From positions 62,001-126,000 of the forward strand of contig JASEFS010000007.1 in the NCBI GenBank assembly GCA_030018495.1: a stretch of 64,000 nt of DNA, in the 5' to 3' direction. This document shows, in pieces, positions 1,989-41,869 of the stretch. Within the stretch, counting starts at the first letter, position 1; each line of letters starts with the position of its first letter. A program made the translations under genes and the position numbers. The notes under the pieces were generated by a model. It saw only the letters and a program-made list of their open reading frames with translations. It did not search any database and had not been told where the DNA came from. The stretch is from Deltaproteobacteria bacterium (GTDB lineage: Bacteria; Desulfobacterota; Desulfobaccia; Desulfobaccales; 0-14-0-80-60-11).

Positions 1989-2045
1989 CCGGACGGGGAG
2001 GGGTGACTCCCCTCCCCGATTCTGCTGCTTTAAGGAAGGTGGAAG

Positions 2046-3862: not shown

Positions 3863-3876
3863 GGAGGGTTTGGACT

Positions 3877-5043: not shown

Positions 5044-5053
5044 GAGGTGAAAG

Positions 5054-5802: not shown

Positions 5803-5804
5803 AC

Positions 5805-8971: not shown

Positions 8972-8972
8972 C

Positions 8973-9920: not shown

Positions 9921-9933
9921 CGGGGATTGAAGC

Positions 9934-12343: not shown

Positions 12344-12344
12344 C

Positions 12345-14059: not shown

Positions 14060-14062
14060 ACG

Positions 14063-16844: not shown

Positions 16845-16853
16845 GGAGATACC

Positions 16854-17837: not shown

Positions 17838-17840
17838 TCC

Positions 17841-18803: not shown

Positions 18804-18832
18804 ATGAAATTCAAGGGAGGTTAGACGCAGCC

Positions 18833-19126: not shown

Positions 19127-19128
19127 TC

Positions 19129-19779: not shown

Positions 19780-19782
19780 GCC

Positions 19783-22889: not shown

Positions 22890-24229
22890 AAAATGAACTC
22901 CGAAAACTCTCCGACTTCTACCAAATCGGGATCGGCGCCTGCTACACTTGGTTTGAAGTCCGCTCCATGGATCAATTGCCCGAAGCTCACTTGGGGGTTC
23001 TGGCGAAGAATGTTGAGGATGCTGATGAAATCACGCACGATTTCCCGAGGTGTGAGAAGCTCCTCCGCACCTAGCCTCTTTACGGTCTCCTGCAAGAAGG
23101 CCTGAAGGTCCTCAGGTGCCAGGTTGTTTTCATACTTATGGTGAGCCCCATACACACCGATAAGGCGGGTCAACAGCACGAAAATCTCTTCATGGCTCAA
23201 TGTCTGAAGCCGTATGATCGGCCCTGAAGTATCTCTAAGCCCATCCCTTATAAACCGGCTTTCCGTCAGGCGAGAGCGCAGGGCTTCATAGCTGTAAAGG
23301 CCTCGCCTCTGGTCTTCTAAGAATTGAGGAGTCCCTCCTAAGAGAAAGCCAAGGGATTCCGCCTTTCCCTGCATAATGTCGTTGAATACGGAAAGAAGCT
23401 TTTCATAGTTGCTTTCCCGGGAGACCTTGTGGGTGATCTTGTAGAGATTGACCGCCTCGTCCAGGATCACCAGCATCCCCTTGTAGCCGATATCTGAGAC
23501 GAGCTTTGCAAAAAGCTTGATGTAATCATACCAGCTGTCATCATTGATAATTACCCGAACCCCTAATGCGTTGTTCGCTTCCGTCTTTGTCGAATATTCA
23601 CCGCGAAGCCATCGGAGTGCCGAATCCTTCAATGTGTCATCATTTTCACGGTAACCTTGCCAGTAGCTCTTGAGCACGGCAGCAAAATCAAAGCCATGGA
23701 CCATTCCCACCATGTTGTTCACAACTTCAAGGATTTTTCCTTCCAGTACTTCACTGAAACCCTGATCACTCGGCCGCATTCCGGTCTCTTTTACAACCTG
23801 CGCCTGGACCGTTGAGAACCAGCGCTCCAAGATTGCCGCTAAAGCTCCTCCTTCCGGCCGGGTCTTCGTAGAAAGGTTTCGCATGATTTCCCGGTAAGTG
23901 CCGAGGGCCTGCCCATTGCTCCCGGTAAGGCGTCGCTCAAGAGAAAGATCACAGTCACCGACCACAAAATCCCGCTCCATCGCATAGTTCCGGATGAGCT
24001 GTAAAAGGAAACTCTTCCCGGAGCCGTATCGGCCAACGATGAATCGAAATGCCGCTCCTGCCTCCGAGATGTTTTCAAGGTCCTGGAGGAGAGCAGCGAT
24101 TTCCTCTTTTCGATCTACTGCCACATATTCCAAACCGATCCTCGGGACCACACCGGCGCTTAGAGAATTTATCAGTGCGGTCGATATTCTTTTAGGGATC
24201 TTTAAAGCTGTCATAGGTCTATACCTCAT
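22886..24229 (-). CDS. BrxD-like (DUF2791) P-loop ATPase
   Basis: A 447-residue ATPase of the DUF2791 family, which includes BREX BrxD. Landmarks: RKEEIAALLQDL, Walker A VGRYGSGKSFLLQLIRN near residue 65, the family block DCDLSLERRLTGSNGQALGT, KTRPEGGALAAILERW, Walker B MLVILDEAVNLYKI near residue 255, and the GGTPQFLEDQRRGLYSYEAL stretch with a probable sensor or Arg finger (LRSRL). It starts 2 bases after the TerB gene; an alternative ATG at 24214 has a GAGG sequence better placed. Family knowledge says BrxD partners helicases; no PglZ or PglX is present here, so this is not a full BREX. Confidence 0.92.
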   Translation of the reverse strand: MRYRPMTALKIPKRISTALINSLSAGVVPRIGLEYVAVDRKEEIAALLQDLENISEAGAAFRFIVGRYGSGKSFLLQLIRNYAMERDFVVGDCDLSLERRLTGSNGQALGTYREIMRNLSTKTRPEGGALAAILERWFSTVQAQVVKETGMRPSDQGFSEVLEGKILEVVNNMVGMVHGFDFAAVLKSYWQGYRENDDTLKDSALRWLRGEYSTKTEANNALGVRVIINDDSWYDYIKLFAKLVSDIGYKGMLVILDEAVNLYKITHKVSRESNYEKLLSVFNDIMQGKAESLGFLLGGTPQFLEDQRRGLYSYEALRSRLTESRFIRDGLRDTSGPIIRLQTLSHEEIFVLLTRLIGVYGAHHKYENNLAPEDLQAFLQETVKRLGAEELLTPREIVRDFISILNILRQNPQVSFGQLIHGADFKPSVAGADPDLVEVGEFSEFIL

Positions 24230-27200: not shown

Positions 27201-27924
27201 CAAAGCCCGGCATGATAGTTTCAGCAACCATGATGTGGTTGCCAAGCGAGGGGATTTCCTTTGCTGAAGCTGGATCGATTCTGAAGGTGACATGAAGTTC
27301 CACTGCATCTTCAGTTACTTCTTTGATCGTTAATAGGAAGAGTGGCTCATCGGAGTATTTGACTACACATATGTATGGAAGCTCACGCTCCTTCCATTCC
27401 CTGACCTTTCGAGTGATGAGGGTGAGGATGTCCTCGCCGGTTATCGCTTCCATTCTGAGCCACTTGTCGTCCTCCTCGCTTGTTCCCTCAACCTCCCAGT
27501 AAGCGTCCCCTAGGAGGAACCAGCCATCTCCCAAGTAGGCAACCCCATCAGCCACCGTTTGCTTTACGTAACTCAGACCATCTACCCAGACGTACCTCAC
27601 TTCAAAGCCTTCCGGCATCGATACAGCCTGAAGGTTATCCGCACCTTCGCTGATTAGAACCTCAAAACGTTTATTGTCGAGATTGCTCAAGACCTGTTTT
27701 ATTTCGGAAAGCATGGAAATTGGAACAATTAACATATCTTTGGATGATTGCAGGCTTTTAAGGCTCCTAAGTTCTTCGTAATGTTCAGCGAGGTAAGCAA
27801 CCGGAATAGCTTTCTTCCCCTTATTAGCCTTAAGCTGAAGGTGATTCCCATGTCTCTCCAGGTTAATCCGATATGGGCGACGCCGAAAAATGCCCGCGAT
27901 CCAGTGAAACAATCCCTTGAACAT
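24232..27924 (-). CDS. TerB_N/TerB_C protein with degenerate SNF2-like core
   Basis: A 1230-residue protein with an AAGGA ribosome-binding site. Residues about 410-600 look like the first half of a SNF2-type helicase: HLEFLRAWGLPGGILGE in the place of the Walker A region, KVLVIAAKKTLDSLREEW (motif Ia), and SKLFKSLLECRKTLTIGLFS in the place of the motif II/III block. The Walker A lysine and the DEAH box are absent (LLEADSLVKSG instead), so ATPase activity seems lost. About residues 690-800 are a TerB_N domain (SSQLKWYFYWRSMVRDGKYP, LSYIFVLIYELINNVGV). The C-terminus carries TerB_C-like helices (NSLSLEMLGDLLIV, NELALDTVGDIIIAPG). It is probably the scaffold for the ATPase and helicase encoded just downstream. 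Confidence 0.85.
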   Translation of the reverse strand: MFKGLFHWIAGIFRRRPYRINLERHGNHLQLKANKGKKAIPVAYLAEHYEELRSLKSLQSSKDMLIVPISMLSEIKQVLSNLDNKRFEVLISEGADNLQAVSMPEGFEVRYVWVDGLSYVKQTVADGVAYLGDGWFLLGDAYWEVEGTSEEDDKWLRMEAITGEDILTLITRKVREWKERELPYICVVKYSDEPLFLLTIKEVTEDAVELHVTFRIDPASAKEIPSLGNHIMVAETIMPGFAPAKLFGGMFTKTGTYRLRGELIPHFLMNVLPKVLKWTDGKKEALRSRHRVIQDECELILSLVREEQNGIGVVSALPELVCGSFRRKAEEISRELSNNKRFIRIEPGWVPIEKLRQIGIGPLGVADDGSSLSPIPLTPTEVLNRGSDRLRGPCSRIEAPELRFPQGKDAQDTARLHLEFLRAWGLPGGILGERDFHVDAFYEMFSTLLSKSPQVKVLVIAAKKTLDSLREEWSNIIAARFEGTRKDPEFKASIQGVVLATPKALEAIPAITSVKWTVLCLLEADSLVKSGTSKLFKSLLECRKTLTIGLFSGIDFLKRTSTREALSQVFGISSRDGSLLWKYGLRNPAEHAPSAPLAYRLPPRQQTGTGASGPAEFTLGSSPGSKSIPIPPRPVYVEPAAVATEEKSSIELKDLGIRIEISYSTGYSGSADKFIQDAKKAVNHRGTTVAHVPFMCYWPTYDSMTSSQLKWYFYWRSMVRDGKYPDSDLSYIFVLIYELINNVGVKDAKDGYEQLRRVWLNYRDRQPKLDNYLIDWIFDYALINKYPADPMEVLREAFRVTAIPRYNYIDLVLPWYITGSLVEIPLVLIDSISNYRILRSKFFNEGYQSVVEEFIPRSLDEVNRHMTEKFGAGIFGLFKPKSCSPVERYPYQSALYSGRLGTIKMGNIVSYSQHAPLRDFIASTVKHTENRLREANNYKGRLRGYSIEPEIQKIIDNLIPSAPPKTVPVFPPKQEIVIDFSRVQTLIKQSDQVLQMLQTGEEKGSEKLAEYLITSQQDIAGKIARPEGTPDHLLTDLDSVHEVLARLDNDEKGLIKALMRHGWEVEASVLSEELPGKFIEFMVDRVNSLSLEMLGDLLIVAENQTKVVAEDFRDELEHLLLANAGAPAMNRQGAEQDQSTGDDLPEEWAQFRAALKEHQHQALRAILAMEDPSEELARLADESAIMPEFLIDSINELALDTVGDIIIAPGSAPPAIEEEDLEFVRKLVQA

Positions 27925-28048: not shown

Positions 28049-31000
28049 TCAATTATCGCTTTCGTCCAAATCAAGCTTTAACATTACTCCCAGGATGGGC
28101 ATGTGGATGCAGGTCTCAATGACTGGGCGGCCGGTGGCCTCTTCCATGGCTTTACGGTAGGCCAACAATTGAGGGGCATACTCCTTGGCTTTTTCAGGCC
28201 ATTGGTCCACGTGCCCGGGAAAACTCTTGTGATCGATCACAACGTATCCTTTTCCAGCGGCGATAAGAAGATCAATCCAGCCGCTCAGCTTCTGCTCTCC
28301 TATCCTGAGGTGGACCGGCCACTCACTGTGGCAAGTGCATCCAGGGCCATAATTATTCCTAATGTAATTCCACAACCTGTCGCCCGCGACGAGAAGGGCT
28401 TCCGGCTCAATGCCATCAGCCCCCCAATTGATCAAAAGTTTCCTGGCCATCTCCAGTCGCTGTTCATGACTTAAGGATGAATCATCCGCCGCCAGGAATC
28501 TGTGGAAGACTTCACCCAGTAAGGTCATGTCGGGGCGACCATTGAGGGGCAAGCGGGGTCCCAAAGTTACCAATTGGGAATCCTTGATCGTAAAAGTGAA
28601 AAGTGTAGACCCAGCCTTGCTCGCGGTCAGACGCGCAGGCAGGAAAGGTTTCTTCTGAGGAATGGTGGCAGAAACATGAACTTGTCCAGGTTCTTTTTGC
28701 CATTGACTTTCCAGGGGCTGAAACGAAGAGGAGTAGAACTGGAAAGTTTGTCTACCGATCTCGATGGTCTTTTCCCCCGTCCCCGACGGCATGGTAAAAA
28801 TCGGGTCACCATTGCCATCCTTGAGGGAATCCAGCCAGGCAGTTGAAGGCTTCTTTCCCTCTCGGGCGGCGCAGACAAGGTAGTCCCTAGCCCTGGTCAT
28901 GCCCATGTACAGGAGACGCATCAGTTCCTTTTTATCCTTCACCAGGACCGCCTGGCGTTCCTCGGATTTATTTATGGCCTCATCCAGTCCCACTCCCACC
29001 TTTTGGCTGCCATAAGGCCATGGCCAGAAGCGGATCCAACGGCCCGACAAGGGGTTATTTACATCAAAAGGTTTATCGGAAGGGCAGACATCTACCCCGA
29101 AAGGATTGTCCTTCTCCACTGCCTGGAGATCACTGAGTATTACCACTGGCCATTCCAGCCCCTTGGCCCGGTGATACGTCAAAACTTGGACGCTGTGTTC
29201 ATCATGACCCTCAGCTTGCTTGTCCAGCTCAGACTTTTTCACCTCATTGGCAAGGAAGGTCATCAAGCCGGCTGGCGTGCCAGCACTTCTGGCAATCAAG
29301 CACCTTTCTTCATACTTGAGCGATAGGCTTCTCAGCACCTCCAGGTTAGCCAGCCTTGGTGAACCGTCCCCCCACAATACCACCCTGTCGCTTACTGTCC
29401 CTGCGCTGATGGCCAGTTGCAACGCTTCACTGGGTGTCAGGTGGAGCAGTTTCTCTCGTTCTGCTTCCAGATTCCGGATAATCGGATGGGACTTCCATGG
29501 CGGGGGCTCTTGTTGGGTCAGCCAGTTGCTAAACCACTGCCGGGGGTTGGACGGGTCCTCCGAAAAGTGAAGGATTTCGGCGACGGCCAGGCTGTCGTTT
29601 GCATCGACCAGGTATCTCAGGCAGGCAAGGGCCAGGATACACTCAGGCCTGGCAAGCAGCCCACTGCGGGGCAACGTTGCCCGCACGCCATGGCTCTCGA
29701 GAGCTTCGGCAACCTGGCTGCACTTGGCATTTGTCCGGCAAAGAATGGCCAGGTCTCCGCCCCGCAAGGAACGCAGCTGTTTAGTGGCTTTATCCAATAC
29801 CTGAAAATCACCTGCCCTCGCAATCATGTTGCCAACTGCCACAGCCAAAGCCCCGGTCTCCTCGTTGATGTTTTTTGCCTGAAGCCACCAGGTATGAAGG
29901 GGACAGGCTTGCCCTACTTCTTTTCTAACGGGTTGGAGTATCACCCGGTTTCCTGGTATTCCCACTGATTGGAAGGCCTCGGCAAAAAGGGCATTGGTGA
30001 GAGCAACCAGCCCGGGGCGGGAGCGATAAGATTGGGTGAGAATCTCGAAATTTTCTGGACCGATTAGATTTTCAATAACCGCATCCATTAACAATGGGTC
30101 TGTGCCGCGAAACCCATAAATCGATTGTTTTTGGTCTCCGACCCATATCGCCTGATCAGCAATCTGGGCCAGTTGAAGGAAGACAGCCAACTGCACCGGC
30201 GAGGTGTCCTGAAATTCATCTACTAAGACCAGCCTCACCTGCTCTTGGAGCTGGGCCCTGACCTCAGGGTTTTGCAATAATTGGAAACACAGGGTTTCCT
30301 GGTCCACAAAATCGATGAGCCCATGTTCCCTCTTGAAATTAGCGAAGTTCTGCATGGCCTCGGCAGCGCAAGCAAAAATCCTGAGAATGAAATTCTTAAT
30401 ATCACGTTGAAAGCGGGGGTGCCTGGGGTGCACCGCGGCCACTGCAATCACCGGTGCCACAATGCCCCGGCTTTTAGCTCCCGGAGACAGCTTTGAAAGA
30501 CGGACCCAATCCGGCCAGGACAAACGAAAATCCTCCCCATGACGTCGCAGGATTTTCTGCAAGTCTTGGGAAACCTTCTGGGTAGCCTGCGTTTCATCCG
30601 GGCTGTCTTTCAGTTGGATTACCGCTTCGCCAATGGCCTCAAACAGAGACTTGTCCAACTGACTTTCCTTGGCCTCGGGTTCGGCCTTGGGCACAAGTTT
30701 CTGAAAGGTCTTGAGTGACCGGGTGGCACTCTCAGTTAAACTTTCCGGGGTGATGTTGTTGGTCCTCGCCAAGTCACTGATGCTTTTGACATCGTCCCGC
30801 CAATTGTCCACCTCAAAGCGCCGGGCTATGGGGTCAATCTCCGGGGCATGCTTCTGCACCACAGAGGCAATGGCCTTTTCATAGATAGCCTGGTCCTCGC
30901 CTTCCGGTAAAACGTCCAGAGTTGGCGAAAGCCCTGCCTCAAAAGCGAAGTCCTTGAGAAGGCGACCGCATACTGAATTAACTGTGCCCACATAGCCATC

Positions 31001-31216
31001 AAAGATGCGTTGGGCTTTTTCCCACTCACCCTGGCCTAAGAGGCTGGTACGGACTCTCTCCGTCAATTCGGCCGCAGCCTTGTTGGTGAAAGTGGTTGCC
31101 AAGACCCTTTCCGGATCCAGCCCACCATTGAGCGCTTCGGCAAGCTTTTCGGTCAAGCGATATGTCTTTCCCGAGCCGGCGCTGGCGCTTATAAGCGTGA
31201 TGTTCGGAAGACCCAT
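28049..31216 (-). CDS. AddA-like UvrD/Rep helicase with C-terminal nuclease
   Basis: A 1055-residue SF1A helicase-nuclease. I chose ATG 31216, preceded by TTTAGGAGATA, 8 bases after the previous stop; the frame is open further upstream but that overlaps the preceding gene. Motifs: SASAGSGKTYRLTEKLAE (Walker A, residue about 12), TTFTNKAAAELTERV, LVLVDEFQDTSPVQLAV (motif II), VGDQKQSIYGFRG (III), SYRSRPGLVALTN (IV), TYHRAKGLEWPVVIL (V) and LLYMGMTRARDYLV (VI). The last 150 residues hold a RecB-type PD-(D/E)XK site (GWIDLLIAAGKGYVVIDHKS and a later QLLAYRK). It would resect DNA ends together with the AddB-like partner. Confidence 0.93.
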   Translation of the reverse strand: MGLPNITLISASAGSGKTYRLTEKLAEALNGGLDPERVLATTFTNKAAAELTERVRTSLLGQGEWEKAQRIFDGYVGTVNSVCGRLLKDFAFEAGLSPTLDVLPEGEDQAIYEKAIASVVQKHAPEIDPIARRFEVDNWRDDVKSISDLARTNNITPESLTESATRSLKTFQKLVPKAEPEAKESQLDKSLFEAIGEAVIQLKDSPDETQATQKVSQDLQKILRRHGEDFRLSWPDWVRLSKLSPGAKSRGIVAPVIAVAAVHPRHPRFQRDIKNFILRIFACAAEAMQNFANFKREHGLIDFVDQETLCFQLLQNPEVRAQLQEQVRLVLVDEFQDTSPVQLAVFLQLAQIADQAIWVGDQKQSIYGFRGTDPLLMDAVIENLIGPENFEILTQSYRSRPGLVALTNALFAEAFQSVGIPGNRVILQPVRKEVGQACPLHTWWLQAKNINEETGALAVAVGNMIARAGDFQVLDKATKQLRSLRGGDLAILCRTNAKCSQVAEALESHGVRATLPRSGLLARPECILALACLRYLVDANDSLAVAEILHFSEDPSNPRQWFSNWLTQQEPPPWKSHPIIRNLEAEREKLLHLTPSEALQLAISAGTVSDRVVLWGDGSPRLANLEVLRSLSLKYEERCLIARSAGTPAGLMTFLANEVKKSELDKQAEGHDEHSVQVLTYHRAKGLEWPVVILSDLQAVEKDNPFGVDVCPSDKPFDVNNPLSGRWIRFWPWPYGSQKVGVGLDEAINKSEERQAVLVKDKKELMRLLYMGMTRARDYLVCAAREGKKPSTAWLDSLKDGNGDPIFTMPSGTGEKTIEIGRQTFQFYSSSFQPLESQWQKEPGQVHVSATIPQKKPFLPARLTASKAGSTLFTFTIKDSQLVTLGPRLPLNGRPDMTLLGEVFHRFLAADDSSLSHEQRLEMARKLLINWGADGIEPEALLVAGDRLWNYIRNNYGPGCTCHSEWPVHLRIGEQKLSGWIDLLIAAGKGYVVIDHKSFPGHVDQWPEKAKEYAPQLLAYRKAMEEATGRPVIETCIHMPILGVMLKLDLDESDN

Positions 31217-31224
31217 CTTATCTC

Positions 31225-33960
31225 CTAAACCTTGGCGCCGCAAAGGTTCAGATAGTTGCACCATTCGCAGCGGGCTTCCAATTCCAAGCCGTCTTCGGCT
31301 TCCTCTATCTCTGGTTTTTCGGTCGGGCTCTCCGCTTCTGCAAAGTCTTCTACGCCTGCCGCCAAGGCAAGCCCATTTTGCAGCTGCTTCAGCCTCTGGC
31401 GATAGGCATTGAGAGAGCGCTGCCAAACGTCCTCCAAATTCACATCCTGGATGACGTTTTGGTCAGGAAAAAGCGGGCAAGAGGAAACCAGGAGTTCTCC
31501 TTGCGCCAGCATATAATAGCCCCCAGCAGGGAAACGCCCTTCTTCTGCTTCCAGCAACCATCCGTAAGTGGCAAGCTGTAGCGCTTTCCCTTCCCGTAGT
31601 TCCTCCCCCTTGTACCGGGCTCTCTTAGCCCATTTCAGATCCAAGATGATTGACCTACCCTCTAAGCTTGCCAGAATCAGGTCTATTCGCCCCTCAAGTA
31701 CCTTGCCCTCAATAAAGCTCCTTTCCTTTTTTACCTCGTAACCGACTATCTGTAGATTGACAGCCTCGATGAGAGAAAACAGTCTTTTCACCGCCTGTCC
31801 TACCTGTTGGCGATAACGAAGTTTCTCCAACTCCCGTCCCGGATGATCCAAAACGGCGGCGATTTTTGGGACAAACTCGTCATAAAGCTGCAACGCCCTC
31901 CGCTCTGCTTCATCAGGGGTCCATTTCGATGACTCTGAAACCAACGTCTCAATGATGAAGTGGCTTAGGGTTCCCAACATTTGGCTGACTCCCGGGAGCG
32001 CCAGCAAATCCCCCGGGTAAAGATTTGCTATGTATTGGAAAACCCAGGACAACGGACATTGAATGATTTTGAACAGACTCGAAGCTGATTCGCGTTCCCT
32101 GGGAAGAATACACACCGGCGGGATGCTCCATTCCCTGCAGGGGACGGGAATGGAGACCTCCGGAATGCTCTTTCTATTTATGAGACTATCTATGACCTTG
32201 GTGGCTTGATCTTTCCATAGTTCCAGGGCATTGAAGCTTAATTTTTGAATCTCGGTCTCGTTTAACTTTAGTAGGTAACGGATTTCGTCCCAGAAGGGAT
32301 GGGGAACCGCTACCTCGCCAGAGATGCTCTCAGGGATGACCAGGACCAGTTGTTTTGCGGCCAAGGCAACCGGCTTCCGCCAGTACTCGGCTTCTCTCAG
32401 CCTGGCTCGGCGGGTGTCCTCAAGGTTAACCCCCTCCGAGCAGAGCGCTTCCCTTTCTGCCAATGTCCAGGGGATACGCCGTTGGTCAATTCCGGAAGAA
32501 GTAAAATTCCACCAAATCACGGTATCAGCCGCCCCCCAAAGCTGCCCCGGGGTTTCCACCTGGGACCAGGGAGCAGCCTGGGGAAAATCAGCGGGGTTTT
32601 CCAGGCCTTCCCCCATCACCGAATCCAGTATCCGGTTCAGTTGCGGCAGGGTTACTTTGTCCAATCCCGAGGCCACCACCGAGTCCCCCACCGCGATGGC
32701 CAGGGCTGCTGAAGTAATAAGCAGTTCATCGTTTTCAAGTCCGCCTCTGGTCGAGGCCCAATTGGCCACCTTGGTGCAAATGTCTCGGATGACAGTGGTG
32801 GGCATGCCTTCCTTGGGATCATACCGTTTTTCCCCGAGCCAGAAACTGAGGTTTTCCTGGAATGCCTCCACGGAGCCTTTGGCCGGTGCCCCGCCCTCTT
32901 TACCGAAAGCTTTCGCATGATAACCGGCAACAACCGAATCCCAGGCCTCTTCCCACTTCGGACCGCCGATGCCGGGATGATCGCGGAGAGATTTTTCAAA
33001 ATACCGGGCCGCCCATCGAGGTATGGGAGACTTGGGAAGGGTAAGGATTTCCAAGAGCCGTTGCGGGTCAAAAGGTTCCCAGTAGTTGCTGAGAATTAAC
33101 GGGAGGACCTGCATAGCCGTGCGCCAGCGGGAGCGCGATTCGCTGCCGAGTCCGGGAAGATTGTGAGCGTGCAAGGCATCGTTCAGGACCACGCTCCCAT
33201 TCCCTTTTATGATGAGCACCTTGGACAAGTCTCTATGAACTTCAAGCCAAGAAGCTAAAGCTTCGCTCACCTCGTATTCATTGGCGCCCTCGAGAATAGC
33301 CAGGGTACCGTCAACCCGGATTGACCCGGGGTCAGGCTTTTCTCCCTGCAAAGCTCGTCGCAGGAGGTTTAGGTCAGAATTATCTTGGTAGGCAAAATCA
33401 ACAACTGTCGTTTCAACTTCTTCCACCCTCACGCCGCATCGTAAAAGCGCGTCAAGGAGCCGGCACCAACTTTGAGGTAATGATAACCGCCTATCTACCA
33501 GTTGGATGAGTTGGAGGGCTAATTTCCTGCCGGAATCCAAGGCACCTATGACATTGTTCAGACGCTCTCCTATTCCAGGAGCAAGTTCCAGATGGTGGAG
33601 TTGTTCCACAGTGGCCATGTCTTGAAGGCGAGGGCTGGCCCCTTTAGGGACGCCCCGTTGCCAACCAGCCATGACCAGTTCATCCCGCCAAGTCAGGAGC
33701 TGCTTGGCTACTGACCAGGCATCGGCCTGCAATGATTGGGAATAAAACCGCCGGCCATCGTCAATTTCTCTTAATCTTTTTAAATATTGACCAATGCGCA
33801 CCGCCTGGGGCACCTGGACGCCTGAAAGTCCCAAGCTCGTTTCAACGACGCCCAGCAGTCCATGAGGACCGAGGACGGCGGTTCCCTGGCAAGCCACTTC
33901 CTGTCCCAAAGCGTCCGGGAAACTGGCGGAATCGAGTTCATAGCCAAAGATGATCCGCAT
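31225..33960 (-). CDS. AddB-like PD-(D/E)XK nuclease with Fe-S cysteines
   Basis: A 911-residue partner of the AddA-like protein. No Walker A motif is visible; the N-terminal 600 residues resemble the non-catalytic helicase-like body of AddB-type subunits. A cysteine at IIQCPLSW (residue about 632) and the C-terminal CEWCNYLNLCG (about 898-908) make the four-cysteine set expected for a 4Fe-4S cluster. Between them lies the nuclease core: GRIDLILASLEGRSIILDLK W near 757-777 and ALQLATYGWL after it. Distant from genuine AddB; the pair may be a specialised version carried by a mobile element. A ribosome-binding AGAGG lies 8 bases before the ATG. Confidence 0.88.
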   Translation of the reverse strand: MRIIFGYELDSASFPDALGQEVACQGTAVLGPHGLLGVVETSLGLSGVQVPQAVRIGQYLKRLREIDDGRRFYSQSLQADAWSVAKQLLTWRDELVMAGWQRGVPKGASPRLQDMATVEQLHHLELAPGIGERLNNVIGALDSGRKLALQLIQLVDRRLSLPQSWCRLLDALLRCGVRVEEVETTVVDFAYQDNSDLNLLRRALQGEKPDPGSIRVDGTLAILEGANEYEVSEALASWLEVHRDLSKVLIIKGNGSVVLNDALHAHNLPGLGSESRSRWRTAMQVLPLILSNYWEPFDPQRLLEILTLPKSPIPRWAARYFEKSLRDHPGIGGPKWEEAWDSVVAGYHAKAFGKEGGAPAKGSVEAFQENLSFWLGEKRYDPKEGMPTTVIRDICTKVANWASTRGGLENDELLITSAALAIAVGDSVVASGLDKVTLPQLNRILDSVMGEGLENPADFPQAAPWSQVETPGQLWGAADTVIWWNFTSSGIDQRRIPWTLAEREALCSEGVNLEDTRRARLREAEYWRKPVALAAKQLVLVIPESISGEVAVPHPFWDEIRYLLKLNETEIQKLSFNALELWKDQATKVIDSLINRKSIPEVSIPVPCREWSIPPVCILPRERESASSLFKIIQCPLSWVFQYIANLYPGDLLALPGVSQMLGTLSHFIIETLVSESSKWTPDEAERRALQLYDEFVPKIAAVLDHPGRELEKLRYRQQVGQAVKRLFSLIEAVNLQIVGYEVKKERSFIEGKVLEGRIDLILASLEGRSIILDLKWAKRARYKGEELREGKALQLATYGWLLEAEEGRFPAGGYYMLAQGELLVSSCPLFPDQNVIQDVNLEDVWQRSLNAYRQRLKQLQNGLALAAGVEDFAEAESPTEKPEIEEAEDGLELEARCEWCNYLNLCGAKV

Positions 33961-34093: not shown

Positions 34094-35098
34094 TCAAATG
34101 TAATTATTCATCATTTCGCTTACCGCCCCCTTCATCTCATCTCTCAAATCGTCAGGCGCCAGCACCGCTGCCTTGGGACCGAAGCTGAGGACCCAGGAGA
34201 TCACTTCTGGCCGGCTGGTAGCGGTGAACTCCAGGAAGATCCCGCCATCCGGCAGCGGAGAAATAACCTGGTCTGCGCTCCATTGGCGCTCTTTCACATA
34301 AACCGCGGCCTCCGGCCGAAAGCTGATTTGCACCCGGAAAGGTTCCCCCTTCATCAGGCCGAAGATATGCTGGCCATCTTTAAACGAGTCTTCCGAGACC
34401 GTAAATGTCCGCTCCGTCAGCTCAACTTGCAAAAGCCTTTGGACCGCCAAAAGCATGCCGTCATAGATGATGTCCGGTTCCCCGGAGTCCGTCACCAGCC
34501 AACACTGGACATAAAGGGTTGCATGGTGGGCGATCAAGGTTAATGGGGCGATGCAGTATTCCTTGGGCTCAGGTCTCTTCGGGGATTGATACCTGACACG
34601 GCAGATTTTGTGGTCCACCATGGCATCGAGAAGCACGTCCAACAAGTGCTGATGGGCGGTATAGTTGATTAATCCCTTGGAATAAGCCTCTCCCAGCTTG
34701 GTCATGGCCCGGGAGCGGTCCTCCATATTAGGGAGCAGGACCGTGGTATGGGCAATGGTCCGACTGATCTCCTCCCTTAATGATTGCGGCAGTAGGTGCC
34801 AAACAAAATCCCGGCAGACCAGGAGCAACTGTATGGCCTCGGCATCAAGGCAAACCTGTGGCCTGACCGGAGGAGTCTTGACCTTGAACCATTTCCGGCC
34901 CCCGTCGATCCAGCTATCCACCTTGGCCTGGTGGCTCAGTTCGATTTGCTCCATCATGCGGAGAACCGTTTGCTTGGAACAGCGGAGCAGTTGGGCAAGC
35001 TGGGTCAAGGAATACTTCTTCCCGCTGAATAAAAGCAGGCCGTAGAGGCTGAGAATCTTGGCCGCCGGCGAGGAATAGGGGCTGATCTTTCCAGGCAT
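34094..35098 (-). CDS. WYL-domain transcriptional regulator (BrxR/CapW-like layout)
   Basis: A 334-residue regulator. Residues about 10-80 form a winged helix-turn-helix (AAKILSLYGLLLFSGKKYSL, LAQLLRCSKQTVLRMMEQIE). After a linker helix region comes a WYL domain about 165-245 (ICRVRYQSPKRPEPKEYCIA PL... TLYVQCWL, with YDGMLLAVQRL), then a WCX-like C-terminal domain (FRVQISFRPEAAVYVKERQW and VISWVLSFGPKAAVLAPDDL). Regulators of this build control BREX and CBASS loci (BrxR, CapW). It sits at the head of the block and faces a divergent gene across a palindrome at 35136-35152, a likely autoregulatory site. Confidence 0.9.
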   Translation of the reverse strand: MPGKISPYSSPAAKILSLYGLLLFSGKKYSLTQLAQLLRCSKQTVLRMMEQIELSHQAKVDSWIDGGRKWFKVKTPPVRPQVCLDAEAIQLLLVCRDFVWHLLPQSLREEISRTIAHTTVLLPNMEDRSRAMTKLGEAYSKGLINYTAHQHLLDVLLDAMVDHKICRVRYQSPKRPEPKEYCIAPLTLIAHHATLYVQCWLVTDSGEPDIIYDGMLLAVQRLLQVELTERTFTVSEDSFKDGQHIFGLMKGEPFRVQISFRPEAAVYVKERQWSADQVISPLPDGGIFLEFTATSRPEVISWVLSFGPKAAVLAPDDLRDEMKGAVSEMMNNYI

Positions 35099-35223: not shown

Positions 35224-36213
35224 ATGCAAAAGCCGGTCAAAGATTATTTCCAGGGCCTGGAGATAGGGCCAAGAGCAGACCATCAAAACATGAGCGTGTT
35301 TCCCTTCTTCTTTATGGCGGAGGCCGGTCTTCAATACCTCCCCCTTGATGCCGCCCTGGCCAGTGGGGTTATCGAGGTTGCCGAGGTGAGCGAGGGCGGC
35401 GACGTCCCTAATCTTAAAGTCACTAACAAAGGTGAGATTCCCATCCTGATCCTGGCGGGCGAAGAACTGGTGGGAGCCAAGCAAAACCGGATCGTCAACG
35501 CCACCTTCCTGATTGCCGGGAAGGCCCGTTTCAATATTCCGGTATCCTGCGTGGAGCAAGGCCGTTGGAGCTATCAGAGCAAACATTTCATGAGTGAAAG
35601 GCGGATGTCCTCGCCGCAGCTCCGTTCCAGGGTCGAGTTAGACCTGGCGTGCTCAATAAGGGAAGGTCGCGGCTTCCGGGCCAATCAATCGGGGGTTTGG
35701 GACGAGATCGGCACCAAGTCTGCCCGGATGTCGGTCCATTCTCCCACTGGCGCCATGTCCGACATCTATGAATCTTATGAGGACCAACTCAGGCAATATA
35801 CCGAAAGCTTCAGCTTATCCCCGAACCAGAAAGGTTTCCTGGTGGCCATTAATGGCCGGATGGCGGGCATGGAAGCCTTTGGCTCCCAAGATTCCCTGGC
35901 CAATTACTTTACCAAGTTGATCCAGAGCTATGCCTTGGATGCCATTGATTTGCACAGACAAGGACAATCCTCCAAACACCCGGAGGATGGAATTGAGGCC
36001 TGGGTTGAGGAGATAAGGGAGTTACCCGTAATATCCAGCCCTTCTCTGAGCCTAGGAGAGGACCTCAGGGTTGAAAGTGAGAAGGTCATTGGCTCCGGCC
36101 TCATGCATGAAGGCACGGTGCTCTATCTTTCGGTTTTTTCGAAGAACGGCTCTAAAAACAAATCCGGAATGGCTCGCGCCAGCAGGAGGGGTTCCTTTAA
36201 CCGGGACTTTTAG
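35224..36213 (+). CDS. ARPP-1-like protein
   Basis: A 329-residue protein starting at ATG 35224, with an AGGAGG ribosome-binding site at 35214-35219; the frame is open to 35134 but without a site. It begins with YFQGLEIGPRADHQNMSVFP and contains GEIPILILAGEELVGAKQNR, then the conserved VSCVEQGRWSY segment. These mark the ARPP-1 family (named for genomic association with ARG and rhodanese-phosphatase proteins in proposed ADP-ribose/NAD-related pathways). Biochemical function is unknown. It is transcribed away from the WYL regulator and may belong to the same cargo. Confidence 0.7.
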   Translation: MQKPVKDYFQGLEIGPRADHQNMSVFPFFFMAEAGLQYLPLDAALASGVIEVAEVSEGGDVPNLKVTNKGEIPILILAGEELVGAKQNRIVNATFLIAGKARFNIPVSCVEQGRWSYQSKHFMSERRMSSPQLRSRVELDLACSIREGRGFRANQSGVWDEIGTKSARMSVHSPTGAMSDIYESYEDQLRQYTESFSLSPNQKGFLVAINGRMAGMEAFGSQDSLANYFTKLIQSYALDAIDLHRQGQSSKHPEDGIEAWVEEIRELPVISSPSLSLGEDLRVESEKVIGSGLMHEGTVLYLSVFSKNGSKNKSGMARASRRGSFNRDF

Positions 36214-36254
36214 CATCCAAAAATGATCACGGATGCAGGATTCAGGAGGAAACC

Positions 36255-37157
36255 ATGGCAAAAAATGGGCAATTGATGGAGGCGGCTATCCTGGGCAATG
36301 CGCCCGCATCAAAAAAGCCGGGTTGTATGAAGAACGTGCCAGGCAAGGGCCTGGTCTGGCTGGTTATTCTTAGCTTTTTCACTTCCACCATTATCTCTTG
36401 CGCCGGAGTTCACCCCCCGAAGCCAAAGGTTGTCTTGCCTGCCACCAGTTACCCGAATTCAACCACTGTGGCCGGGGTCTCAGTGGCAGCCGTGCTGTTT
36501 GATCCAAACCGGGATATTTATGCCAGCCCCAACGATGCCAGCCAGAAGCGCCCGGATTTTAACTGGTTTAAGGCCGGGGTCTGCCCTGCGCGGCTCATCC
36601 TGGAAAACGGTTCCAATAATCCCATCATGATTGACCCCACGCAGATAACCTGCACCGATTCGGCCGGAGTGACCTATAAGCCCTATGACGCTCGCGAGGC
36701 GGGAGACGCCGTGGTTTCCTCGGAGGCGTTCAACTCTTACGTACGTGGGGCCATTGCAGGGGCGATCCTGGGTGCGGCCATCGGAGCCGGGTTAGGAGCG
36801 GCCATCGGCGGTGTGGCCGGCGGGGGCCGGTGGGCGGCCCGGGGTGCGGCGATAGGCGCGGCCAGTGGAGGAACCCAGGGGCTGGTCTTGGGGTCCGTGG
36901 CTAACCGGCAAGCCATGGAGATGAGAGTGAGGACCGTGCTGATGGCCAATCACCTTCAGCCCAAGGTCCTATCCAAAGAGATGACCCATGAAGGACTGGT
37001 CTACTTCCCGGCCAAGGACATCAAGTCAATCCGGCTTTTACTCGCTTCCGAGGGAGGCCAGGACGTCCTTAAACTCGATATTCCAGTGGTTATGGCTCCA
37101 CAAGAAAAGGTCGTCCGGGAAGAGGAAAAGTTGCAGGAGAGTGTGCCTGCGCAATAA
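36255..37157 (+). CDS. Glycine-zipper lipoprotein-like membrane protein
   Basis: A 300-residue protein with a strong AGGAGG site 7 bases before ATG 36255; a later ATG at 36327 would give a more typical signal peptide. The hydrophobic segment GLVWLVILSFFTSTIIS is followed by Cys-Ala-Gly, a plausible lipobox, so the mature protein would be lipid-anchored. Residues about 160-200 are a glycine zipper with repeated GAAIGAGLGAAIGG-type steps, which can insert into membranes. The N- and C-terminal domains are soluble beta-rich parts. It follows the ARPP-1-like gene by 41 bases and may be co-transcribed. Confidence 0.75.
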   Translation: MAKNGQLMEAAILGNAPASKKPGCMKNVPGKGLVWLVILSFFTSTIISCAGVHPPKPKVVLPATSYPNSTTVAGVSVAAVLFDPNRDIYASPNDASQKRPDFNWFKAGVCPARLILENGSNNPIMIDPTQITCTDSAGVTYKPYDAREAGDAVVSSEAFNSYVRGAIAGAILGAAIGAGLGAAIGGVAGGGRWAARGAAIGAASGGTQGLVLGSVANRQAMEMRVRTVLMANHLQPKVLSKEMTHEGLVYFPAKDIKSIRLLLASEGGQDVLKLDIPVVMAPQEKVVREEEKLQESVPAQ

Positions 37158-37188
37158 ACGCTGAATAAGCTTAGAATAATAACTTGCT

Positions 37189-37428
37189 TGATTAGAGTTC
37201 GCTGAATGGCAACTCGGTTACTCCAGGTGTTAGGGGCAGGAGTACTTCGCCAGGGTGAATGACGTAGTCGGGGGAGGCACGGTCCTGTAAGTCCTTTTGG
37301 AAACTGTGAGGTTGCGGGTCATGGCGGTCGGGGCGTATCGGAGAGTTTAACCTCCAAAGGGATAGCCGTCCGCCATCGTCCACCACAATATCCACCTCGG
37401 CTCCGGCTGCAGTGTGACAAAGGTACAC
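37189..37428 (-). pseudogene. Remnant of a DUF4143-family AAA ATPase (C-terminus only)
   Basis: A minus-strand frame of about 78 codons reads YLCHTAAGAEVDIVVDDGGR, then a degenerate middle, then DYVIHPGEVLLPLTPGVTEL P. This is the C-terminal signature of the AAA_14/DUF4143 family (normally about 400 residues). The ATPase part is missing and no good start exists, so it is a decayed fragment. It marks past turnover of genes in this part of the island. Confidence 0.7.
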
Positions 37429-37601
37429 TGAGCATGATCGTCATGGTAGCCGTGCAGGTATACCATATGAATGTAAAACTTCATGGAATCAGCGAACTTT
37501 TTCTTATAAAATAATCCTAACATTTGGGATGTCGGTTGCCAGCTTCTAAACAGAAAAAGATAAAGGCTTAGGCATAGTTTCAGAGCCATAATGAACTCAA
37601 G

Positions 37602-38270
37602 ATGATGATGGAGCATAACAATAAAATGTACGGTAGCCAGTATTGGTTGCGGATAGCGGTAAATGAGGCACGGGAAATTTTCAACCAAAAGGTCATAGAA
37701 GCCGTATCACTCGACGTTGGCGAGCAGATAGAATGGATTTCTCCTTTGGCGATGGCTTATACTGAATATCAGGACCAACAGTTTGTCGAAAAACTTCGCA
37801 TAAATCTAAAAATTCCCCTAAAGGACTTTTGGCCAAAAGGCGGCCCTGTGTGGGATGCCCTCGCGCGAACCTCCAATCCCGAAGGCAAAGTGTTCCTTAT
37901 TGAAGCAAAGGCACACATTCCAGAGATAAATTCGTCCGTATCAGGTGCCTCTCCAAGGTCTCTCCAGCGCATCGCTAAGAGCCTGAATGAGACAAAAGCT
38001 TTTCTCGACGCGAATCCCATCGTCGATTGGACTCGGACATTCTACCAGTACACGAACCGGATAGCCCATCTCTATTTCTTGCGCAAACTCAATAATATCT
38101 ACTTTATCAATGATACTCGGATGGGTGGACCTTCAACTATTGAAGAATGGAAAGGTGCCTTGGCTTTGCTCAAGACCCACTTAGGTATCACTCGCACCAA
38201 GCTGACGCCGTTCATGAAGGATCTCTTTATTGATGTTGACGATCTAAGGCAATTTTTGCGCAAGCTCTAA
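37602..38270 (+). CDS. PD-(D/E)XK nuclease-like protein
   Basis: A 222-residue protein of low GC content. The stretch GGPVWDALARTSNPEGKVFL IEAKAH near residues 78-105 has the form of a restriction-endonuclease-like core (Asp, then Glu-x-Lys 17 residues later, with a hydrophobic strand before it). The rest is helical (SPRSLQRIAKSLNETKAFLD). The start is one of three ATGs in a row with no clear ribosome-binding site. It lies 63 bases before a DNA glycosylase-like gene on the same strand, suggesting a two-gene DNA-targeting module. Nuclease function is inferred. Confidence 0.6.
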   Translation: MMMEHNNKMYGSQYWLRIAVNEAREIFNQKVIEAVSLDVGEQIEWISPLAMAYTEYQDQQFVEKLRINLKIPLKDFWPKGGPVWDALARTSNPEGKVFLIEAKAHIPEINSSVSGASPRSLQRIAKSLNETKAFLDANPIVDWTRTFYQYTNRIAHLYFLRKLNNIYFINDTRMGGPSTIEEWKGALALLKTHLGITRTKLTPFMKDLFIDVDDLRQFLRKL

Positions 38271-38333
38271 TAGTCAGCTACTTTCAGACACATTTGAGAT
38301 GGAAAGTTACCTCCCTAAAAAGGGAGGCCTCGC

Positions 38334-39050
38334 ATGGACAAGATGGCAGCCCGGAATCGACTCGCTGCGGTTATTCGCGAACTAGCCACAGAGAAGCGAG
38401 TTGAACTCGAACGACTTAAGAAGGAGTACAGCGGGCTTTCCCGCCCTGACTTTGTATGGCATTATCTCTTGCAAAGTTTCTCAACAATGGGGAGGGCCTC
38501 CGGTTGGCATGGGCTTATTGCTAACAAGAAAAACTACCAGCAGATAACCTACCATGCCCTCGCCACCCTGACTCCGGAAGGTCGCAGAACGCAAATCCGG
38601 GAAGTGTGTAGGGCAGCCAAGGTTCGTATGCCTGATAAGAAAGCGGATTACATCCTGCTCTGTTTTGATTATGTCAGGCAGCTTGGCGGCCCTGAAGCCG
38701 CAAAGGCTAAGCTGCTCGCCCAACCGGGGCGTGAGGCAAAGATCCGCTTCCTCCAAACTTTTCCTGGCATTGGGCCCAAGTATGCCAGAAACATCATGAT
38801 GGACGTCTATCATGAGGAATTTCGGAATAGCATAGCCCTGGATATTCGAATTAAGGCCATCTCAGAGGCGCTCGGTCTATCGTTTTCGTCTTATGCTGAA
38901 CACGAGTCATTCTACCTTAACGTAGCTCGCGATGCGGGGATCAATGGGTGGGAGCTGGACCGCTTACTATTCAATTTTCGTGATGAAGTCGAGGCGAGGC
39001 TTGGGGTCAAAGGAGAAATTGGCACCCGAAACAAGCAATGCTCACGATGA
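38334..39050 (+). CDS. HhH-GPD DNA glycosylase-like protein
   Basis: A 238-residue protein with a GGGAGG ribosome-binding site. Near residues 142-180 it has the helix-hairpin-helix FPGIGPKYARNIMMD followed by SIALDIRIKAI. Aligned to endonuclease III (LPGVGRKTA ... VDTH), the Lys of GPKYA takes the place of the catalytic Lys, and the Asp of LDIR that of the catalytic Asp, so both active-site residues are present. No 4Fe-4S cysteine loop is visible. It could remove modified or mismatched bases. It is the last complete gene before the attachment-site remnant. Confidence 0.72.
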   Translation: MDKMAARNRLAAVIRELATEKRVELERLKKEYSGLSRPDFVWHYLLQSFSTMGRASGWHGLIANKKNYQQITYHALATLTPEGRRTQIREVCRAAKVRMPDKKADYILLCFDYVRQLGGPEAAKAKLLAQPGREAKIRFLQTFPGIGPKYARNIMMDVYHEEFRNSIALDIRIKAISEALGLSFSSYAEHESFYLNVARDAGINGWELDRLLFNFRDEVEARLGVKGEIGTRNKQCSR

Positions 39051-39163: not shown

Positions 39164-39187
39164 GGCGAGTAGGTTGGCGAGTAGGTT
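39164..39187 (+). repeat. Tandem 12-bp repeat (GGCGAGTAGGTT x2)
   Basis: Two exact head-to-tail copies of GGCGAGTAGGTT. A related pair occurs at 39320-39343. The shared core is GAGTAGG(T/A)T. Both lie within 270 bases left of the tRNA fragment at 39433, inside the element, where integrase arm-binding sites are expected. Confidence 0.7.
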
Positions 39188-39319
39188 GGGTTCAAACAGG
39201 GGTCACGGGGTGAACCTCCATTTTCTGAAAGGCCAGTAAATCAAGGGTTTCAGAGGATCAGCAATTTTGATTGAGGCCCTTCACTCCGGCAACCGGGTGA
39301 AATAAAAGCCCCCCAAATC

Positions 39320-39343
39320 ACTGAGTAGGTTACTGAGTAGGAT
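39320..39343 (+). repeat. Tandem 12-bp repeat (ACTGAGTAGGTT / ACTGAGTAGGAT)
   Basis: Two head-to-tail copies that differ at one base and share the GAGTAGG core with the pair at 39164-39187. Candidate arm-type binding sites of the element's integrase, inferred from position next to the attachment site. Confidence 0.65.
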
Positions 39344-39432: not shown

Positions 39433-39479
39433 GCTTCGCATGCAGGAGGTCAGGGGTTCAAATCCCCTCATCTCCACCA
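39433..39479 (+). tRNA. 3' half of a tRNA-Ala(CGC) gene: right attachment site (attR)
   Basis: The sequence runs from inside the anticodon arm to CCA: GC, loop TTCGCAT (anticodon CGC, U33 before it, A37 after), GCAGG, variable loop AGGTC, T-arm AGGGG-TTCAAAT-CCCCT, acceptor strand CATCTCC, discriminator A and CCA. A full tRNA-Ala would need CCTGC before the loop and a GGAGATG- or GGGGATG-type acceptor start upstream; neither is present. This is therefore the displaced 3' part of a tRNA gene, the usual right-hand junction left by a tyrosine integrase. The intact gene should lie at the other end of the element, outside the window. Confidence 0.85.
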
Positions 39480-39498
39480 ATAATAAGCAAAGTATTAC

Positions 39499-39533
39499 AA
39501 GGGTTGGCAACCCGGGGGGTGTCAGCCCTTTTT
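39499..39533 (+). terminator. Rho-independent terminator of the tRNA-Ala gene
   Basis: An 11-pair stem (AAGGGTTGGCA with TGTCAGCCCTT, two G-U pairs) around a 10-base loop, followed by a run of T. It lies 20 bases after the CCA end of the tRNA fragment, as expected for the original terminator left behind at the right junction. Confidence 0.7.
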
Positions 39534-39881
39534 GATTTTGAAGCCAAATTTGGGGTGGCATGCGGTTTTGCGTCAATTCCCATGTCATTTAGCGCTGCCT
39601 GAGCTTCTCTAAAGCGAACATTCACATGGTCGCCGCTTTCAGGGCTGCGCCCCACTCGATTCCCCCCTGGACCTCTTTGAGCTTCACGCCAGCCATTCCT
39701 AGCTTTTCCATAGGAAAACTTGCCTACGCTGCTTGAAACTTCCCATTGGAGTGCTTAGAAAATATCACATGAGTACTTGCAGGAGCTCCATGCTTGAAAT
39801 GTAGTTTCTGGCGGCTACCGCCTCTTGTGACTTTTTTGGCGCTGGCCGGAGGCGAGACCAAACTTTAGGAGAAATTTGATC
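39534..39881. other. Non-coding upstream region of the SQR operon
   Basis: About 350 bases without a supported gene. A TTGAAA at 39733-39738 with TAGAAA 17 bases downstream (39756-39761) is a possible promoter for the SQR operon, with weak -10. A minus-strand stretch at about 39600-39715 reads as a broken short frame starting with MEKLGMAGVKLKEVQGG, possibly a gene remnant of unknown kind. Confidence 0.4.
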
Positions 39882-41156
39882 ATGAAAAAGCTGGTTATTT
39901 TAGGTTCAGGTACCGGTGGCACCATCATGGCCACCAAGATGCGGCAGAAGCTGCCCGAATCCCAGTGGGAGATCACCATTATCGATCAGGACTGGCAGCA
40001 CCACTACCAGCCTGGATGGATCTTCATTCCGTTCGGCATTTACACCAAAGAGGACTGCGTCAAGCCCAAGGCCAAGTTTATCCCCCCGGGGGTCAACTTC
40101 GTTCTGGATGAAATCATCGAGGTCGACCCCCACCAGAAGCAGGTCAAGACCAAGCGGGACACTTACGCCTACGACTGGCTCATCATCGCCACCGGCTGCC
40201 GCATCATGCCCGCGGAAGTGGAAGGCATGATGGAAGGCTGGGGCAAGAACATTTTCAATTTCTACACCCTGGAAGGCGCCATGGCCCTGTATGAGCAGAT
40301 GAAGTACTTTAAAAAGGGCCGGGTAGTGGTGAACATCGCGGAGCTTCCGTTCAAATGCCCGGTGGCGCCCCTGGAATTCGCGTTTATGGCCGACTGGTTT
40401 TTCTCAAAAAACAGGGTGCGCGACGACATCGAAATAGAGCTGACCACGCCGCTGGGCGCAGCCTTTACCAAGCCGGTGGCCGCACAGGTGCTGGGCAACA
40501 TCTGCGCAGAGAAAAACGTCAAGGTCACCCCCAACTTTCAGATTTCCGAGGTGGACGCCGGCAAAAAAGTGATCAAGTCGTTCGGCGGCGAGGAGGTGCC
40601 CTATGACCTGTTGGTGTCCATACCCCCCAACTTCGGGGCCCAATGCCTCATTGACAGCGGCATGGGCGACCCCATGGGCTACATGGACACGGACCACAAC
40701 ACCCTGAGGGCCAAAAACTTCGATGCCATCTACGTCATCGGCGACGCCACCAATGTGCCCACCTCCAAGGCCGGGGCCGTGGCCCATTATGAAGCCGACA
40801 CAATTACCGAGAACCTCATCCGGGAAATCGACGGACAGCCGCCCCTGCCGTCTTATGACGGCCACGCCACCTGACTGGTGGTGACGGGTTACGAGAAGGG
40901 GTCCCTTCTCGATTTCAACTACAAAATTGAGCCGCTGCCCGGCAAATTCCCCTTTCCGGGCCTGGGTCCTTTCGACCTGTTGAAGGTGAGTTTCAGCAAT
41001 TATGTGGCCAAGATGATGTTCCGCTGGGTGTATTTTAATTTGATGCTCAAGGGCAGTCACCTGCCCCTGGAGTCTGAGTTCATCCTGGCCGGCAAGGAAC
41101 GGGGCATTCTGTCCCCTGACATTGAAATGCCCCTGCGCATGAGGAGGCGGAAATGA
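39882..41156 (+). CDS. sqr: Sulfide:quinone oxidoreductase, predicted selenoprotein (UGA at 40872)
   Basis: Starts at ATG 39882 behind AGGAG. The frame encodes an FAD-dependent SQR: dinucleotide fold KLVILGSGTGGTIMATKM, the PFKCPVAPLE motif with redox Cys159, DLLVSIPPNFGAQ, and IYVIGDATNVPTSKAGAVAH (second FAD motif). It then meets a single in-frame TGA at 40872-40874 (codon 331) and continues with no other stop for 93 codons: LVVTGYEKGSLLDFNYKIEP, LPGKFPFPG and FRWVYFNLM, the normal SQR C-terminus. The TGA takes the place of the C-terminal redox cysteine (the one in AVCFADMG of the Acidithiobacillus enzyme). With the SECIS-like hairpin behind it, selenocysteine is the best reading: 424 residues, normal SQR length. 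The alternative is a nonsense mutation. SQR oxidises sulfide and passes electrons to quinone at the membrane. Confidence 0.8.
40892..40911 (+). promoter_or_regulatory. Candidate bacterial SECIS element
   Basis: CGAGAAGG (40892-40899) and CCTTCTCG (40904-40911) form a perfect 8-pair stem with the loop GGTC. The loop lies 25 bases after the in-frame TGA, within the range accepted for bacterial SECIS elements. The same GGUC occurs in the apical loop of the E. coli fdhF SECIS, where G and U contact SelB. The bulged U of fdhF is not evident here. Confidence 0.65.
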
Positions 41157-41869
41157 GCCCGGAAGAACAACTTCTGGAACGGCTGGCCCGAATCGAAGCA
41201 AAGCTGGATGGGCTGGACCGCCTGGAGAAGCAGATGCAAGTCTTCGCCGGTACTTGGGAGAACTTCCATGATCTCAGCCGGGACGTCTCCCTGCTCATGG
41301 AACCTGCGGTCCAGCACCTAACCGATGAACTGGTGGAAGTGGAAACGGGCTTCCAACTGGAGGATGTCCTCACTCTGTTGAGAAACCTCCTGCCCCGTCT
41401 GCGCTATATCTCTTACAGCCTGGAGCAGTTGGAGAACCTCATCGACTGGTGGCACGATATGGAGCCGGTACTGAAGATCGCGGTGCCGCATTTCATCGAC
41501 TACCTGGACAGTTTAGAGCAGAAGGGCATTTTTCGCATCAACCGGGCCATGATCGACATGTACGCCAAGATAGCCGAGCACTACACCCCGGAGGACATCG
41601 CCGCCATCGGCGACGGCTTTGTGCGCATGCACGGCATCATCAAGAAGTTTTCCGAGCCGGAATTCATCCGGTTCGTCGAAAAATTCATGGACATCCCCAC
41701 CCAGATGAAACTGGAAGAGGCTAAACCCACCGGACCCATGGGCCTCATGTTCCGCCTGATGGATGCCGAATGCCGCCAGGGTCTTGGCGTGGCCCTGGAA
41801 ATGACCAAGGCACTGGGGAAGCTGAAAAACGGGGATGGGCAACCGAGCGGTACTGAAAAGGAAAAATAG
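41153..41869 (+). CDS. DUF1641 protein, SQR partner
   Basis: A 238-residue, mostly helical protein whose ATG overlaps the SQR stop by 4 bases. It starts with a coiled-coil segment (LERLARIEAKLDGLDRLEKQ) and contains the DUF1641 core: LLRNLLPRLRYISYSLEQLE and PMGLMFRLMDAECRQGLGVA. DUF1641 proteins are regularly found beside SQR or formate/sulfur oxidoreductase genes; their role is not established but they may help dock the enzyme to partners or the membrane. The overlap shows that translation reaches the real SQR stop at 41156, which itself argues for readthrough of the internal TGA. Confidence 0.85.
   Translation: MSPEEQLLERLARIEAKLDGLDRLEKQMQVFAGTWENFHDLSRDVSLLMEPAVQHLTDELVEVETGFQLEDVLTLLRNLLPRLRYISYSLEQLENLIDWWHDMEPVLKIAVPHFIDYLDSLEQKGIFRINRAMIDMYAKIAEHYTPEDIAAIGDGFVRMHGIIKKFSEPEFIRFVEKFMDIPTQMKLEEAKPTGPMGLMFRLMDAECRQGLGVALEMTKALGKLKNGDGQPSGTEKEK

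Follow-up and report, generated by a model that had tools for sequence, protein, structure and literature searches.

Phage-borne defense hotspots have been described as small, owing to the limit set by the capsid. In P2-like phages such a hotspot lies between the replication and portal genes and holds different defense cargo in each prophage; cargo at the P2/P4 hotspots averages 3.2 kb, and BREX and type I RM were reported as lacking there (PMC9122126). Among tRNA islands, the anticodon-centered class of Islander combines an intact tRNA, a displaced 3' fragment and an internal tyrosine integrase in the right orientation, with a length criterion of 2-200 kb (PMC4383910). Of the defense systems relevant here, type-3 BREX has six core components in one block (PMC12839542), and Shango is made up of the adjacent genes for SngA, SngB and SngC (PMC10250203).

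The window analyzed here is a 64-kb stretch of DNA, C59:62001-126000 of a 3.46-Mb assembly; positions given without a contig prefix are those of the window. The segment 39433-39479 corresponds to the 3' half of tRNA-Ala(CGC), with no 5' half alongside, and ARAGORN and Rfam found zero tRNAs across the whole window. A 25-bp probe from the fragment, with up to 3 mismatches allowed, matched once in the window and not at all in shuffled sequences, with 0 matches expected by chance. Genome-wide (3.46 Mb), a 45-bp probe occurs twice, at the fragment and at C59:12027. The repeat is exact over 49 bp, with the right copy at 39433..39481 (C59:101433-101481, + strand) and the left copy at C59:12025-12073. 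These are the only two copies in the genome, on the same strand and 89,408 bp apart, and this core begins 2 bases ahead of the anticodon loop and ends 2 bases beyond CCA. In window numbering the left copy is at -49975 to -49927, i.e. outside the window, within an intact tRNA-Ala(CGC) gene (C59:11996-12071, 50 kb left of the window, same strand as the fragment). Such an intact gene, sharing its core with the fragment and adjoining an integrase, had been predicted to lie left of the window by an earlier sequence-only reading, and extending the assembly leftward located both the second core copy and the integrase gene (C59:12086-13132). The core had been put at 47 bases; the repeat is real and exact, but its length is 49 bp. 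Left of the core the two copies differ, GTAGC in the fragment standing against CCTGC in the intact gene, so that the divergence proposed for the 5' side of the anticodon stem is borne out by comparison with the intact gene. The crossover is expected within the 7-base anticodon loop, TTCGCAT.

The tyrosine integrase gene is convergent with the tRNA gene and ends 15 bp from it. Its product matches the PHROG integrase family (4.5e-49), all of the motifs R, HxxR, H and Y are present, and dN/dS is 0.05 relative to the copy in a sister element. Tandem 12-bp direct repeats (CACTGAGTAGGT) are found ~90 bp right of the start of the left core and ~90-110 bp left of the right core; these paired repeats (CTGAGTAGGTNA) sit just inside both element ends and nowhere else in the genome. 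The inner pair at the right end (CACTGAGTAGGTTACTGAGTAGGA, 39319..39342, + strand) is a double repeat whose only other genomic copy is at C59:12118-12141, and an outer pair (CGAGTAGGTTGG twice, 39166..39189, + strand) lies further in at the right end. Among 59 related genomes the double repeat was found with zero mismatches only at G009:C86, and with two mismatches at two further places. The G009:C86 site is the sister element, in a different genus, where the integrase at tRNA-Ala(CGC) is 98% identical and accompanied by the same repeats; it should be mentioned that the attR of this element falls off its contig. One of the two-mismatch sites adjoins a 49%-identical integrase (G009:C117), with tRNA-Sec as the neighboring tRNA. 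A search of IMG/VR gave no close relatives of the integrase. It is most likely that the repeats (CTGAGTAGGT) are arm-type binding sites accompanying this subfamily of integrases, and the presence of paired repeats just inside both ends indicates that one integrase probably serves both.

Based on these features, it is highly probable that an 89.4-kb prophage (C59:12025-101481), with 39433-39481 as its attR, was integrated at tRNA-Ala(CGC) by its own tyrosine integrase, cargo included. The anatomy of the site is observed directly, and the reaction that would account for it is recombination by the integrase of attP with the tRNA-Ala(CGC) gene, with the crossover in the anticodon loop. Relative to the parts of the Islander description considered here, nothing essential differs, and the 89,408 bp fall within its length range (PMC4383910). 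Transfer RNA fragments also arise for other reasons, but a chance or degenerate tRNA pseudogene with no relation to a prophage is refuted by the exact 49 bp, the shared strand, the integrase adjoining the intact copy and the arm repeats at both ends, and can be given virtually no weight.

Just outside the element, a hairpin with a T-run is found in host DNA at 39500..39534 (+ strand; -19.2 kcal/mol, z = -3.1). A terminator with 11 pairs had been claimed at this place; the hairpin and the T-run are real, but the minimum-energy fold has 13 pairs, and the terminator is better viewed as one that belongs to the host. The right side of attR reads GGTTGGCAA...CAGCCC followed by the T-run (z -3.1), and the element DNA to the right of the attL core has GGCCACTTAGGTGGCC and a T-run (z -4.3). 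A hairpin of the GGTTGGCAA type lies downstream of tRNA-Ala(CGC) in G001, which is of the same genus, and in G011, G012, G016 and G010:C227. Because of this tail in the relatives, the terminator to the right of attR is best read as the native tRNA-Ala terminator of the host, displaced by 89 kb, with the element supplying a replacement at the left, although in two of the relatives with such a tail an unrelated integrase also adjoins the tRNA, and the tail could in principle stem from an older element. By this exchange attP would bring a tRNA 3' half together with a spare terminator, leaving the tRNA gene at attL whole, and the host's own 3' half and terminator would be pushed to the right end. 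The supply of a substitute terminator, with the native one left at attR, is a point not found in those parts of the Islander account (PMC4383910).

The right flank of the element is host DNA with a gene for a sulfide-dehydrogenase-type flavoprotein and two following genes (39882..41869, + strand), a three-gene order that is kept in many genomes of the family. In G001, the left-flank gene order g009-g016 matches up to the tRNA at 67-89% protein identity, and the tRNA-Ala(CGC) is intact with one core copy, so the element-free genome of the same genus has a whole tRNA rather than a fragment. As the intact gene of the present genome adjoins an integrase, neither of the two observations named in advance as contradicting the earlier reading was made. 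No integrase is present among the G001 genes beside the tRNA, a Wzz-like gene follows, and the right flank is not syntenic with the host flank of the element. The comparison with an insert-free relative, which the earlier reading had proposed, supports the left boundary of the element through the left flank and the single intact tRNA, but the right flank is different and provides no joined empty site. No empty site joining both flanks was found among the relatives, and those with the right-flank gene trio show no tRNA in the stretch examined. Further 3' fragments of tRNA-Ala(CGC), with other left flanks, are present at G009:C32:8109-8153, G010:C220, G021:C6 and G010:C238. The fragment at G009:C32 was considered as the attR of the sister element and rejected; its flanks differ and arm repeats are missing, which assigns it to another element.

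Of the element, ~50 kb are phage backbone and ~40 kb are cargo, the latter split into two blocks. The early genes lie at C59:12.1-38.2 kb, where the integrase is followed by an excisionase/regulator-like ORF, a PLD-nuclease-like gene (weak match), a CI-type repressor, a DnaC-like loader and more early phage genes. Late genes (C59:59.8-82.2 kb, GC 0.62) encode portal-MuF, protease, major head, adaptor, tail and endolysin proteins by PHROGs matches. The part within the window (1..20166, + strand) is collinear with related elements and includes genes for the major head protein (774-1988), head-tail adaptor (2288-2845), major tail protein (3877-5043), a tail collar-type protein (8973-9920) and endolysin (19129-19779), all on the + strand and all assigned by PHROGs, and for a putative tape measure (5805-8507, + strand), assigned by size and position. 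The gene set of a tailed temperate phage was thus found, with integrase, repressor, replication, terminase, portal, head, tail and lysis genes, the terminase being in two ORFs with weak matches. It is noted that the large terminase seems to be split over C59:23162-25465 (L004:3162-5465) into a nuclease-domain ORF (g035), a small HTH ORF (g036) and an ATPase-domain ORF (g038), an order also kept in the viral contig G059. After the ATPase gene, ~0.9 kb (C59:25466-26394; L004:5466-6394) has no convincing ORF and no match in Rfam. Even the two sister elements are not alike in the slot that separates integrase and repressor, a 1154-aa TOPRIM-type protein being encoded in the sister (L062:9170-12634, - strand) where the present element has the PLD-nuclease-like gene. 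Elsewhere in the host genome, the phage exonuclease gene is present again as a partial copy (G000:C42:18550-18996, 58% identity), a possible remnant of another prophage of the same family. In G063:C50:11124-12104 (L135) the DnaC-like gene runs directly into the last 87 portal residues, which could reflect either a derivative with a large deletion or a join introduced by assembly.

Cargo block A (C59:38.2-59.7 kb, GC 0.52) is flanked by the early exonuclease gene on one side and the portal gene on the other. It encodes, in addition to BrxF, BrxC, PglXI, the BrxH helicase, PglZ and BrxA, an HD protein, a DarG-like protein, PsyrT, PsyrA and a DUF262-type protein. With PADLOC scores of 219 bits for BrxF, 2055 for BrxC, 1331 for PglXI, 1553 for the BrxHI|BrxHII model, 1020 for PglZ and 340 for BrxA, all six core components of type-3 BREX are predicted in block A, and the system appears complete. 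The core genes share one block as in described type-3 BREX, but here the genes for PsyrT/PsyrA and for the DUF262-type, HD and DarG-like proteins are interspersed among them (PMC12839542). Terminator-like hairpins, identified by eye, bracket the block, one after the exonuclease gene (C59:37065-38168 to 38250) and one before the portal (C59:59690-59806), and may thereby insulate block A from both the early and the late operons of the phage.

Block B (C59:82.6-101.1 kb, GC 0.52) is situated between the lysis genes and attR and contains Shango, AddAB-like genes and a WYL regulator. Side by side on the - strand are predicted genes for an SngC-like helicase (20634..22889; PADLOC SngC, 831 bits), an SngB-like ATPase (22886..24151; PADLOC SngB, 608 bits) and an SngA-like, TerB-type protein (24232..27924; PADLOC SngA, 323 bits over residues 634-1119), which would constitute the Shango trio sngA, sngB and sngC. 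About 630 residues precede the part of the SngA-like protein that matches. The three homologues are adjacent as in described Shango, but SngA here has 1230 aa with only its middle part matching, and the AddAB-like genes and WYL regulator follow on the same strand (PMC10250203). These are a UvrD/AddA-like helicase (28049..31216, - strand; GajB-type UvrD helicase matches in PADLOC), an AddB-like PD-(D/E)XK protein (31225..33960, - strand; Pfam PDDEXK_1, 2e-20) and a WYL-domain regulator (34094..35098, - strand; PADLOC WYL). The rest of the block (35224..39050, + strand) encodes an ARPP-1 domain protein (Pfam ARPP-1, 9e-96) and three proteins without a match, one of them a putative lipoprotein. 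Judging from the gene families, the prophage most likely benefits by defending the lysogen.

The change in GC content from 0.62 to 0.52 at 20.2 kb of the window could suggest two elements in tandem in the tRNA-Ala site, a prophage ending near 20.2 kb and a separate Shango island at 20.6-39.4 kb. In addition, tRNA-Ala(CGC) serves several types of integrase as an integration hotspot in this bacterial family, where several integrases and fragments at the gene are unrelated. However, no third core copy is present at the phage/cargo boundary, even when 19/45 mismatches are allowed, no integrase is found among the right-hand cargo genes, and block A, equally with a GC content of 0.52, sits in the middle of the phage. 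The repeats that match the left-end integrase are located to the right of the cargo, beside attR, and the Shango cargo is therefore placed inside the integration unit. A six-frame translation of C59:101435-101890, right of attR, gave no recognizable remnant integrase. The tandem arrangement was rejected on the missing core copy and is regarded as very improbable. For the single prophage that we prefer, the arm repeats on the attR and attL sides, as the likely integrase binding sites, would put the late genes and the right-hand cargo in one integration unit. The sequence-only reading had also proposed one element up to 39479, with ~19 kb of cargo; the single unit stands on the core pair and the arm repeats at both ends, but the cargo amounts to ~40 kb in two blocks.

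Related elements were compared at the position of block A by the distance from the exonuclease (g062) to the portal (g077), taken here as the dock size, in nine comparisons for which both flanks were available. The phage backbones are collinear, and this distance varies over 0.17-32 kb. It is 0.17 kb in the IMG/VR viral contig G059, 0.59 kb in the viral contig L189, 1.65 kb in the viral contig L098 and 2.2 kb in the congener G065, which is taken as the same genome as G001. Larger docks contain type I RM (14.2 kb, G007:C107), type-3 BREX with PsyrTA (21.6 kb, present element), DUF3780/DUF1156/PLD-helicase with PtuA-like genes (23.4 kb, G016:C41), CusA/CzcA, CzcB, a P-type ATPase and ArsR (24.0 kb, G060:C134), and three RND pumps with a heavy-metal-type sensor kinase (32.0 kb, G060:C6). 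All docks of 14.2-32.0 kb are in prophages of host genomes, and the viral contigs are nearly empty there. The present genome (G000) and G060:C134 have in common ~120 bp directly before the portal and are then entirely different. One-sided cargo in G021:C18, G016:C292, G016:C329, G003:C80 and G027:C73 was left out of the dock count, as these contigs do not include the portal and the DNA may belong to the chromosome. The occurrence of different large blocks at one portal-proximal locus in related prophages identifies this locus as a cargo dock of the phage family. Variation is also seen at the right end, with an RmrA-like gene and a methyltransferase gene after the late genes in G063:C13, and with type I-C cas3, cas8c, cas7, cas4, cas1 and cas2 beside the integrase in the 54.8-kb contig G059 (IMGVR_UViG_3300022554_000219; L130-L132). 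This contig has CRISPR repeats at each of its ends, and no cas5 was recognized in its set.

The dock works like the P2 hotspot, being a variable portal-side locus with different defense cargo per prophage, but it is not a member of that class, which is defined by P2-family phages and cargo of a few kb. The present phage has a portal-MuF and an HK97-type head protein and is not P2-like, and the cargo here measures 14-32 kb (21.6 kb in the present element), includes BREX and type I RM, and comprises metal efflux as well (PMC9122126). We tentatively propose, as a possibility that we rate clearly below even, that deltaproteobacterial temperate phages keep a portal-side dock and a second one at attR for cargo of 14-32 kb (whole BREX, type I RM, metal resistance) and still move between genera, either with a capsid for ~90 kb or by spreading without packaging the whole element.

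The element may instead be a domesticated, immobile prophage that gained its cargo after grounding and is now a chromosomal defense island between old att sites, a possibility that falls just short of an even chance. At 89 kb it has about twice the genome size of the phages with the nearest major capsid proteins in phage records (mostly 33-44 kb), the dock is almost empty in the family's viral contigs, and a search of IMG/VR with BrxC and SngA gave no relatives, and thus no viral contig with such cargo. However, collections of viral contigs may be biased against contigs rich in cellular cargo. The backbone ORFs of laden relatives are open wherever the contig covers them, and the integrase, repressor and structural genes have dN/dS values of 0.03-0.30, both of which argue against long decay; the 49-bp core copies are still identical, and the 98%-identical integrase occurs in another genus. 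Taken together, domestication and continuing mobility are about even. Either the capsids are larger than in the 33-44-kb phages, or the laden prophages do not enter the capsid in their entirety.

The attachment site itself is of textbook type and yields a precise element boundary, predicted from sequence alone; the large-cargo dock is the part worth following. Large systems that were reported lacking from P2/P4 are found here in prophages with intact-looking structural genes, which makes the capsid-limit argument directly testable. For an under-studied bacterial group, this prophage family points to a source of BREX, Shango, type I RM and metal-efflux clusters that is, or once was, mobile.
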